A stretch of 64,000 nt of DNA from positions 6,163,501 to 6,227,500 of the forward strand of contig NZ_CP020370.1 in NCBI RefSeq assembly GCF_002813775.1. Reading direction: 5' to 3'. A program made the position numbers and the translations under genes. The number at the start of each line of letters is the position of its first letter. Within the stretch, counting starts at the first letter, position 1. The stretch is from Candidatus Thiodictyon syntrophicum. GTDB taxonomy: Bacteria; Pseudomonadota; Gammaproteobacteria; Chromatiales; Chromatiaceae. Shown here piece after piece: positions 49,798 to 53,331 of the stretch. The notes under the pieces were generated by a model. It saw only the letters and a list, made by a program, of their open reading frames with translations. It was not told the DNA's origin and ran no database searches.

Positions 49798-52700
49798 TCA
49801 CTCGGCCTTCTCGATCAGGTAGATCTCCATCCGACGGTCGCGGCGGTTTGCGGTCCCGGCGGGGGCCGCGCCGATGGGCCTGGTCTCGCCGAGCCCGATC
49901 GCCTGGACGCACGCCGCGGCGACGCCGCGCGCGATCAGTGCCTGTCTGAGCGTATCGGCGCGGGCCTGGGAGACGACGAGGTTGGCCTCGGCGCGTCCGC
50001 CGGCATCGGTGTGACCCTCGATCCGCAGGTCAAGGCCGGGGTGCTGCACCAGCAGTGCGGCGAGGCCGTCGAGGACCTTCAATTCGCCGGGGGGGAGATC
50101 GGCCTTGCCGGTCGGGAACTTCAGTTCGTCATTGGACAGGATGAGTCCGAGTCCCCGCGGGGTCTCGCGGCCGCCCAGCGCGACGAATCGGTCAAGCAGG
50201 CCGGGCGGCCGTGCCGGCGCATCGACCTGGGCCTGCGGGTCGGCCGGCGCGGCCGGTTGGCGCGGCCCGCGCCCGGGGTCAAGGATCGCCTCCAGGGTCG
50301 CGATGCGCGCCCTGGCGGCGGCGATCTCCCGCTCCAGTGCGGCCCTCTCCTGCGCCCCCAGGACGGCCGCCGCGGGGTCCGGCGCGCTGCCGACGGCGGG
50401 CCGCGGCGCAACGTCGCGCCGACCGGGAACCGCCACCGCGGCCTGGTCGCTGTCGGCCGGGCGGGCGCCCGGCGGCGCGCTCGACCTGGCCGCGTACCAG
50501 CCGTAGAGCAGGATCGGGATCGCCACCAGGGCCAGGGCCCAGGCCAGGACCTTGAAGGAGGTGTTGCGCCGTCCGGCGTCACCGGAGTCGTCTGCCGATT
50601 GGCGCCCCGCACCGACCCCGGCGCCGACCCCGCCCGTCCAGCCCGCCCAGACCGCGCGGACGCGCGGGCTCAGGGCCAGCTTGCGCAGCTCGTCGAGCAA
50701 CAGTACGCTGGAGGCCACGCTCAGGGCCAGTCCCCAATCCGCCAGGCTCAGGTCGGTGGTCCGGAAGACGGCCTGCGCCGGGCCCCAGTGGACCACCAGC
50801 ACCTGCAGGACCAGCACGGTCGCCAGGGCCAGCCACAGCCAGCGGTTGCGCAGGAAGCCGGGGTTGAAGGCGCTGCCGTGCTCGGTACGCGCATTGAACA
50901 CGTTGAAGAACTGGAACAGGACGAAGGTCGTGAAGGCCAGGGTGAGCGCGTAATCCTGGCCCTGGGGCTGCGCGTACCGGAACAGGGCCAGGGTGCCCAC
51001 CGCCATGATGGTCCCATAGAACACCAGGAGACCCAGCCGCTCGGCGGTGAGGATGCGGGCGTCGGTCGGGCGCGGCGGCCGGTCCATCGCCCGCGGATCG
51101 GCCGGCTCCAGCCCGAGGGTCATGGCCGGCGGGCCGTCCATGATGATGTTGATCCACAGGATCTGGACCGCGGTGAAGGGCGTGGCCCACCCGAGCAGGC
51201 TCGCCCCCAGGACGGTCTGGATGGCACCCATGTTGGTGGACAACTGGAAGCGGACGAACTTGACCAGGTTGTCGTAGATGGTCCGCCCCTCACGCACGGC
51301 GCCGACGATGGTGGAGAAGTTGTCGTCGGTGAGGATCAGGGTGGCGGCCTCCTTGGTCACCTCGGTGCCGGTGATGCCCATGGCCACGCCGATGTCGGCG
51401 GTTTTGAGGGCGGGGGCATCGTTGACCCCGTCGCCGGTCATGGCCACCACATGGCCGTGGGCCTTGAGTTGCCGGACGATCCGCACCTTGTGTTCGGGGG
51501 CGACCCGGGCGAACACGGCGACCTGGTCGATGCGCGCGTCCAGGGCCGCTTCCGACAGCCCGTCGAGGTCGTTGCCATCCAGCACCTCGCCCGCGAGGCC
51601 CAGGTCCCGGGCGATGGCGGCGGCCGTGAGGCGGTGATCGCCGGTGATCATCTTGACCTGGATGCCGGCCCGGCGGCACAGCGCAATGGCGTCCCTGGCC
51701 TCGGGCCGCGGCGGGTCGAGGATGCCCACCAGTCCATGCAGGACGAGATCGTCGCACAGGGCCATCAGGTCACCGGCGGGGTCGAACCCCGCCGCCGGGA
51801 GGTCCTTGCCGGCCACCGCCAGGACCCGCATCGCCTGCGCGGCGAGCGACTCGTTCTCCGCCGTCAGCCGCGCGCGGGCCTCCTGGTCGAGGTCCAGCGG
51901 ACCCTGCGGGCCTAACCAGGCGGTCGAGCGGCCGAGCAGGACATCGGGGGCGCCCTTGACGTAGACCCGCACCAGGTCCCCATCGCGGTGAAAGGTCGCC
52001 ATGAACTTGTGCGCCGAGTCGAACGGCACCTCGGCGATGCGCGGCCACTGCCCGGCCAGGGCCCCGGCATCGACGCCACCCTTGGCGGCCAGGGCCAGGA
52101 GTGCCCCTTCGGTCGGATCACCGATCAGGGCCCCGTCGCGGATGCGGCTCTCGTTGCACAGTGCGGCGGGTAGGAGGAGATCCGCCAGGTCACCGGCGGG
52201 CGCCCCGTCCCGCGCCGTGATGGTCCCCAGTGCCGTATAGCCCTCGCCGCTGACCGCCAGGCGCCGGCCCCGGTAGAAGGCGGCGCGGGCGGTCATCTGA
52301 TTCAGGGTCAGGGTCCCGGTCTTGTCCGAGCAGATCACGCTGGTGCAGCCCAGGGTCTCCACCGCGGCCAGGCGCTTGACGATCGCCCGTTGCCCGGCCA
52401 TCCGCTGCATCCCCAGGGCCAGGGTCACCGTGACCACGGCCGGCAGACCCTCAGGGATGGCGGCCACCGCCAATGCGATGGAGGTGAGCAGGGTCTCTAT
52501 CCAGGGCTGGCCGCGCAGCAGCCCCAGGATCAATATCAACGCGACCACGACCCCGGCGATCAGCGCCAGGCGGCGACCCAGGCCGTCGAGCTGGACCTGT
52601 AAGGGTGTCGGACCCGGCTCAACCTCCAGCATACCGGTCAGGCGGCCCATCTCGGTCGCCATACCGGTGGCGGTGACCAGGAGCTCCAGCCGCCCGCGGG

Positions 52701-53331
52701 TGACGACCGTGTTCATATAGGCCATGTTGAGTCGCTCGGCGAGCGGCCCCACGGCCTGGACCCTGGCCTGGGCGTCCTTGGCCACCGGCTGGGACTCCCC
52801 GGTCAGCGTCGACTCGTCGATCTCCCCATTGTGGGCGACCAGCAGTCGTCCGTCGGCGGGTATCCGGTCGCCGGCCTCCAGCAGGACCAGGTCGCCGGGG
52901 ACCAGGGTGGCGGCGGCCACCTCATGAACGCCGCCGTCGCGCCGGACCCGGGCACTGGGGGCGAGCATCTTTTTCAGCGCCGCCAGGGTGGCCTCGGCTC
53001 GGTGCTCCTGCCAGAACCCGAGCAGGGCGTTCAGGACCACGACCACCAGGATCACTACCGCATCCTTGAGGTCCCCGACGGAGCCGGCCAGCACCGCGGC
53101 GCCCAGGAGCACCAGGATCAGGAGACCTTTGAACTGGTCGGCGAGCAGCAGCCACTTGGACCGCGGCGGCCGTTCCGCCAGGCGGTTCTCCCCGTGGCGG
53201 GCGAGTCGCTCGCCGACCTGGGCCCCGGTCAGGCCGGTGGCCGGGTCGACCCCCAGGGTGCGCGCGGCCTCGGCGCCGTCCCGGGTATGCCAGGCGTTGT
53301 CGTCCGGGCCCATCGGCCGTTCCCCGCTCAT
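49798..53331 (-). CDS. P-type (P2A-like) cation ATPase fused to a periplasmic OmpA-like domain
   Basis: A 1177-residue protein. Residues 1-895 are a complete P-type ATPase: TGES (177-180), PEGLP in M4 (293-297), DKTGT with the phosphorylated Asp336, KGAPDVLL, MITGDHRLTA, and MTGDGVNDAP (631-640), plus a SERCA-like six-helix end (ILWINIIMDGPPAMTLGLEP). The Glu of M5 (SERCA E771) is Ala in NMGAIQT. Then comes an 11th helix (FKVLAWALALVAIPILLYGW, 926-945), a Pro-rich linker with a coiled coil, and an OmpA domain (about 1055-1175) with LRIEGHTDAGGRAEANLVVS. The helix would put it in the periplasm, facing peptidoglycan. The ATG at 53331 has AGGA 7 bases ahead and overlaps the stop of a small upstream frame (ATGA). 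One continuous frame, no junction error visible. Confidence 0.93.
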   Translation of the reverse strand: MSGERPMGPDDNAWHTRDGAEAARTLGVDPATGLTGAQVGERLARHGENRLAERPPRSKWLLLADQFKGLLILVLLGAAVLAGSVGDLKDAVVILVVVVLNALLGFWQEHRAEATLAALKKMLAPSARVRRDGGVHEVAAATLVPGDLVLLEAGDRIPADGRLLVAHNGEIDESTLTGESQPVAKDAQARVQAVGPLAERLNMAYMNTVVTRGRLELLVTATGMATEMGRLTGMLEVEPGPTPLQVQLDGLGRRLALIAGVVVALILILGLLRGQPWIETLLTSIALAVAAIPEGLPAVVTVTLALGMQRMAGQRAIVKRLAAVETLGCTSVICSDKTGTLTLNQMTARAAFYRGRRLAVSGEGYTALGTITARDGAPAGDLADLLLPAALCNESRIRDGALIGDPTEGALLALAAKGGVDAGALAGQWPRIAEVPFDSAHKFMATFHRDGDLVRVYVKGAPDVLLGRSTAWLGPQGPLDLDQEARARLTAENESLAAQAMRVLAVAGKDLPAAGFDPAGDLMALCDDLVLHGLVGILDPPRPEARDAIALCRRAGIQVKMITGDHRLTAAAIARDLGLAGEVLDGNDLDGLSEAALDARIDQVAVFARVAPEHKVRIVRQLKAHGHVVAMTGDGVNDAPALKTADIGVAMGITGTEVTKEAATLILTDDNFSTIVGAVREGRTIYDNLVKFVRFQLSTNMGAIQTVLGASLLGWATPFTAVQILWINIIMDGPPAMTLGLEPADPRAMDRPPRPTDARILTAERLGLLVFYGTIMAVGTLALFRYAQPQGQDYALTLAFTTFVLFQFFNVFNARTEHGSAFNPGFLRNRWLWLALATVLVLQVLVVHWGPAQAVFRTTDLSLADWGLALSVASSVLLLDELRKLALSPRVRAVWAGWTGGVGAGVGAGRQSADDSGDAGRRNTSFKVLAWALALVAIPILLYGWYAARSSAPPGARPADSDQAAVAVPGRRDVAPRPAVGSAPDPAAAVLGAQERAALEREIAAARARIATLEAILDPGRGPRQPAAPADPQAQVDAPARPPGLLDRFVALGGRETPRGLGLILSNDELKFPTGKADLPPGELKVLDGLAALLVQHPGLDLRIEGHTDAGGRAEANLVVSQARADTLRQALIARGVAAACVQAIGLGETRPIGAAPAGTANRRDRRMEIYLIEKAE

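Follow-up and report, generated by a model that had tools for sequence, protein, structure and literature searches.

P-type ATPases that pump Ca2+ and inner-membrane proteins that carry OmpA-type domains are each well described, the latter including MotB, TssL and similar proteins, which have an inner-membrane helix joined to an OmpA-type domain and serve motors or secretion machines, not a P-type ATPase. Here, we describe a gene that joins the two kinds of protein, found in a window of 64,000 nucleotides (the whole stretch of DNA analyzed; contig NZ_CP020370.1 of assembly GCF_002813775.1, positions 6,163,501 to 6,227,500) from the genome of the purple sulfur bacterium Candidatus Thiodictyon syntrophicum Cad16T. 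Its closest described counterparts include single-site Ca2+ pumps and one pump with an extra helix. According to PMC11977196, LMCA1, PMCA and SPCA each move a single Ca2+, and the single site of LMCA1 is equivalent to site II of SERCA. In a review (PMC10058886), SERCA2b is described as having, beyond M10, an additional 11th helix that leads to a luminal tail, and its M11 alone lowers the maximal velocity and raises Ca2+ affinity. Both halves of the Thiodictyon protein are of known kinds, and as far as we have seen their combination is without description in the open-licence PMC literature. There, among the papers listed, we found no described case of a P-type ATPase with an OmpA, peptidoglycan-binding or extra domain, in keeping with an earlier note, made from the letters of the window alone, that knew of no protein of such make-up.

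The fused coding sequence (49798..53331, minus strand) is a single uninterrupted frame of 1177 amino acids plus a stop codon; the open reading frame (ORF) runs from 53484 to 49798, and the ATG at 53331 gives the 1177-residue protein. From the N-terminus, it comprises a P2A-type ATPase with membrane helices M1-M10 (residues 1-886; 50674..53331), a low-complexity junction on the predicted cytoplasmic side (887-918; 50578..50673), an 11th hydrophobic helix (919-949; 50485..50577), a Pro/Ala-rich, putatively periplasmic linker (950-1054; 50170..50484), and an OmpA-like domain (1072-1165; 49837..50118), all on the minus strand. The Pfam matches follow the same order, with Cation_ATPase_N, E1-E2_ATPase, Hydrolase/Cation_ATPase, Cation_ATPase_C (717-885) and OmpA (1072-1165) all above their curated cut-offs; the cation-ATPase core spans residues 14-885, and the OmpA domain (PF00691) scores 52.3 bits against a cut-off of 27.2. 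Together with the hydropathy profile, these matches confirm the full P2A-type ATPase, 11th helix and OmpA-like domain in one frame that the earlier note had read from the translation. No in-frame ATG, GTG or TTG was found in codons 884-935, so no such internal start would yield a C-terminal part with the whole helix.

To find other copies, we took the last 133 residues and scanned 84,980 species, each represented by one genome. The scan used exact peptide patterns (RIEGHTDA among them) and thus finds close relatives only. It returned one near-identical place (95%), in a metagenome-assembled genome (MAG) from Lake Loclat, uncultured Thiodictyon sp. isolate Loclat_bin-12166; among the best 80 of 241 loci, the next stood at 53%. 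The Loclat locus (L039/L149; contig 825 of genome G170) holds the whole fusion in one stop-to-stop frame of 1242 amino acids on a contig of 4187 bases. The two fusion proteins are 97% identical, neither strain has a stop codon inside the frame, and the only indels are two whole codons at residue 901 and three at residue 1031, both between M10 and the OmpA domain. That two genes were joined by an assembly or frameshift error would agree with the unfused state of the remaining orthologues listed, but it is hardly credible, and, short of one error shared by both assemblies, we reject it, because the junction recurs in the independently assembled MAG, where the reading frame is kept and every indel is a whole number of codons. 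A missed frameshift near 50550-50650, which the earlier note had named as a possible refutation, is rejected on these grounds as well.

The fusion is a genuine, rare and young gene fusion. The family and order searches covered the same 210 genomes with three candidates scored per genome, and the class search covered 369 genomes with two. In the family, listed matches at or above 60% identity came from 22 genomes, of which only the Cad16T genome that holds the window (G000) and the Loclat MAG matched through to residue 1177; in the other 20, the best listed match ended at residue 884-906. Within the genus, five of eight genomes had an orthologue at this threshold, two of them fused, while in the class none of the 14 genomes with a listed match at this level besides G000 reached the OmpA part (one alignment extends to residue 977 but crosses two stop codons). 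The question set by the earlier note, whether homologues in relatives split at this point, thus has a mixed answer: in 20 of these 22 family genomes the match stops after M10, but the sister genome shares the fusion. With the C-terminal part as query, some OmpA match was obtained in all 210 family genomes, and among those listed only the ones of G000 and the Loclat MAG lie in the fusion frame. Further fusions hidden in long OmpA frames were considered and rejected: DKTGT was present in none of 12 other listed matches in frames of 932-1422 amino acids, whose excerpts look by eye like repetitive coil proteins. The rarity holds for close orthologues and not for every P-type ATPase, and an independent fusion with a distant ATPase could be missed. 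The Chromatiaceae loci L194-L205 encode very long OmpA proteins, with repeated coil-like units in stop-to-stop frames of 932-1422 amino acids.

The ATPase half carries the motifs DKTGT, TGES and GDGVND, in addition to the Pfam core domains, and D336 of DKTGT (52324..52326, minus strand) is by homology the phosphorylated Asp. Its best solved relative is human SPCA1 (aligned over residues 20-885), followed by Listeria LMCA1. The positions of the site-II Ca2+ ligands are kept, namely E294 of PEGLP in M4, and N728 and D732 in M6; the M5-M6 segment (51136..51234, minus strand) also includes N700 and A703. The M4 motif PEGLP, the M5 motif STNMGA and the M6 motif LWINIIMDGPPA recur with single-residue changes in seven unfused orthologues (L010-L013 and L175-L177). 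A703 occupies the position that we take to be Glu771 of SERCA, and in the printed alignments SPCA1 and LMCA1 also have Ala there. Since both of these are single-site Ca2+ pumps, the Ala is no argument against Ca2+, and the earlier suggestion that its presence points to another ion does not hold. Besides this Ala, the fusion shares PEGLP in M4 and WINIIMDGPPA in M6 with SPCA1/PMR1; SPCA1 differs in that its aligned chain ends at M10 without an OmpA match and has Gln where the fusion has Met737. LMCA1 is bacterial like the fusion, and its M5 N..A and M6 N and D line up with the fusion residues; it differs in lacking a tail and in having Asn opposite Met731 and Arg opposite Gln807 in M8, the latter taken to be Arg795 of PMC11977196. 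Altogether, residues 1-886 most likely form a single-site, SPCA-like P2A pump that would export Ca2+, perhaps Mn2+, from the cytoplasm to the periplasm.

A main substrate of Mn2+ or another divalent cation in place of Ca2+ is possible but doubtful, and it would be compatible with a wall-tethered pump. SPCA pumps carry both Ca2+ and Mn2+, to judge from titles in the reference list of PMC11977196, the M6 motif has Met at the SPCA1 Gln position, and the next gene upstream, which we give as context, encodes a CorA-family divalent cation transporter (53747..54685, minus strand; Pfam CorA, 167.5 bits); set against these are the M4 and M6 ligand positions for a single Ca2+, which are kept. Related P2-type ATPases of the family (L014, L015, L016 and others of L014-L038) have LWVNMITAVTLALA as their M6 motif, with Ala at the position of the Asp in Ca2+ pumps, although their M5 does have Glu.

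Downstream of M10, residues 924-942 are the sole stretch above the hydropathy threshold used before the OmpA domain is reached. AlphaFold2 run on residues 880-1177 predicted one helix over residues 919-949, a second, short one over 993-1017 within the linker, and an OmpA fold (mean predicted local distance difference test [pLDDT] 75, predicted template modeling score 0.49), with two linker stretches below 50. In the known topology of P-type ATPases, M10 ends in the cytoplasm, so helix 11 would carry the chain to the periplasm, which supports the view of the earlier note that the fusion is topologically sensible. A Foldseek search with the predicted OmpA fold matched the domains of PA0833, YiaD, OprF, Pal and OmpA (E about 1e-9 to 1e-7), and structures of MotB and TssL are among the matches of the fusion. 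D1109 and R1124 align with D and R in all five printed solved OmpA-like relatives. Their spacing of 15 is also that of Asp271 and Arg286 in Acinetobacter baumannii OmpA, a comparison by spacing in which the A. baumannii sequence itself was not aligned; these two residues bind diaminopimelate, according to PMC5974059. D1109 and R1124 are invariant in an alignment (A1) of 31 rows, made up of the window sequence plus 30 loci out of the 80 kept in the last-133-residue scan. For D1109, the invariance follows in part from how the loci were chosen, RIEGHTDA having been one of the patterns searched with, while R1124 was in no pattern. The conserved contact residues and the fold matches to solved peptidoglycan-binding domains agree with the peptidoglycan-binding type named in the earlier note, and we infer that the OmpA domain binds the diaminopimelate peptide of peptidoglycan.

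The C-terminal part appears to be a truncated Chromatiaceae OmpA protein of the membrane-anchored, coiled-coil kind. The last 130-230 residues of the fusion are ~40-50% identical to free-standing Chromatiaceae proteins that consist of an N-terminal anchor helix, a long periplasmic coil and a C-terminal OmpA domain (transmembrane [TM]-coil-OmpA proteins), and tail residues 67-293 (query numbering) share 44% identity with the one from a Lamprocystis MAG (G047). The 31 unfused TM-coil-OmpA rows that we gathered are 498-677 amino acids long, some with N-termini cut or chosen crudely, whereas the module in the fusion is ~255 amino acids long and has only the 25-residue helix 993-1017 where they have a long coil. 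Cad16T itself retains a free-standing TM-coil-OmpA copy (contig C1, about 214.7-216.5 kb); when a tree was built from the last 150 residues, the two fusions clustered with the Lamprocystis protein (92/82) and not with this own-genome copy. Against a profile of 28 N-termini from the 31 rows, helix 11 ranks first of 8135 ORFs, although weakly (10.9 bits, E 0.15), the 8134 controls being six-frame ORFs of at least 80 amino acids, of which many are not genes and from which ORFs with an OmpA motif had been removed. This is suggestive, not proof, that helix 11 is the former anchor of a TM-coil-OmpA protein.

The ATPase half may have a different history. Five genomes of other Gammaproteobacterial families encode proteins that share 71-75% identity with it, against 67% for the same-genus copies, and in the ATPase tree it groups with the other-family proteins (87/97), at a fork that is drawn open and carries a warning of long branches. 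This placement hints that the ATPase was acquired separately. A simple arrangement in which the donor OmpA gene lies downstream of the ATPase in relatives was looked for and not seen in G168, G169 or G172 or in ten fetched loci. In these three genomes of the same genus (L175-L177), the unfused ATPase and the TM-coil-OmpA gene of the argA side are 1.6-2.6 kb apart on opposite strands, separated by one or two predicted genes. The genes beside the TM-coil-OmpA gene in Thiodictyon loci are presumably argA and a pilR-like regulator. The ten loci fetched for unfused orthologues showed no ORF with an OmpA motif in the 13 to about 4900 bases available beyond the ATPase. On both sides of the fused gene lie copies of an intergenic repeat of 111 bases with inverted ends (49642-49752, 53565-53675 and 58028-58138 of the window); the repeat is scattered through the genome, with 87 matches at E values up to 0.001 when both strands and partial copies are counted, and it might have helped the rearrangement.

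We lean towards the reading that this young fusion yields a wall-tethered, single-site exporter of Ca2+ (or Mn2+), and hold it to be slightly on the probable side. A shortened copy of an anchored OmpA protein would have been joined to the cytoplasmic C-terminus of the pump, its anchor becoming helix 11; the OmpA domain, in the periplasm at the end of a linker of ~105 residues, would grip peptidoglycan through its diaminopimelate peptide, and the pump would therefore be held at the wall without free diffusion. A simple count of nonsynonymous and synonymous changes (dN/dS), which we made for the Cad16T and Loclat pair, gave 0.125 for the ATPase (residues 1-886) and 0.29 for residues 1041-1177, with seven nonsynonymous and nine synonymous changes. 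The seven of 16 compare with 72% nonsynonymous expected by chance (one-sided p 0.016). The difference from the ATPase is significant for residues 887-1040 (p 0.0002) but not for residues 1041-1177 (Fisher p 0.22). This is modest evidence that the OmpA part is under weak purifying selection.

Several points weigh against the tethered pump. The test on the OmpA part counts 16 changes, and its p-value becomes 0.057 when the tail is taken as a whole, starting from helix 11 (939-1177). Residues 887-1040, which include the junction, helix 11 and most of the linker as well as both indels, have a dN/dS of about 1.0 (near neutral), so that the count holds no evidence of constraint on the linker. The fusion is held by two closely related genomes only among the listed orthologues; the likeness of helix 11 to the TM-coil-OmpA anchors, at E 0.15, is weak, with the next control at 9.9 bits against 10.9; and the full-length fold (pLDDT 32, from two rows) gives no usable contacts between helix 11 and the pump. 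The ATPase also scores 771.6 bits against the PMR1-type equivalog TIGR01522, below the curated cut-off of 798.3, and is not filed as a member. A nearly neutral young fusion, in which the pump tolerates a tail of little added use, would account for the presence of the fusion in two of the 22 family genomes with a listed orthologue, for the linker value and for the whole-tail test. We nonetheless consider it unlikely, given the shortage of nonsynonymous changes in the OmpA part and given that both indels keep the frame and neither strain has gained a stop.

It is equally improbable, in our view, that the tail mainly regulates the pump, with helix 11 packing on M10 and nearby loops, the tail altering affinity or speed, and peptidoglycan binding being secondary. 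The precedent is SERCA2b, whose pump-tuning 11th helix and luminal tail also weaken the general statement in the earlier note that P-type ATPases normally end after M10; the likeness is one of arrangement, and it is helped by the short junction that separates M10 from helix 11. The luminal tail of SERCA2b, however, is short and has no wall-binding domain. Here, the added part contains a complete OmpA domain in which both peptidoglycan-contact residues are present, the closest relatives listed for it are anchored OmpA proteins that stand alone, and constraint is weaker on the helix and linkers than on the OmpA domain. Wall tethering is thus preferred, only modestly, over both SERCA2b-like tuning and a young appendage.

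If the tether works, nature would here have fastened an ion pump to the wall, and the fusion would lend itself to testing whether ion homeostasis is influenced by where a pump sits or by its contact with the wall. P-type ATPases would then also have, in bacteria, a parallel to the accessory 11th helix of SERCA2b, one gained when a second membrane protein was fused on. We found no evidence supporting a mechanical sensor, a role that the earlier note had put forward. Photosynthetic intracytoplasmic membranes are continuous with the peripheral cytoplasmic membrane, and one rather remote idea is that the OmpA module acts as a fence or covalent sorting signal that keeps the Ca2+ pump peripheral and out of these membranes; Ca2+ would then be exported only where the periplasm meets the wall.

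A second kind of C-terminal fusion was observed in the Loclat MAG, where a P-type ATPase (L168:961-4083, minus strand; G170:C570) is joined to a DsbB domain (PF02600, 101.8 bits, residues 857-1007). Whole-length matches to it occur in three of 204 family genomes (G170, G168 and G135, the last from another genus; Pfam was run on the G170 protein only), and the Cad16T copy, which matches residues 1-695 only, looks broken. The occurrence of this fusion in the same genus suggests that the C-terminus of P-type ATPases after M10 can accept further membrane modules.

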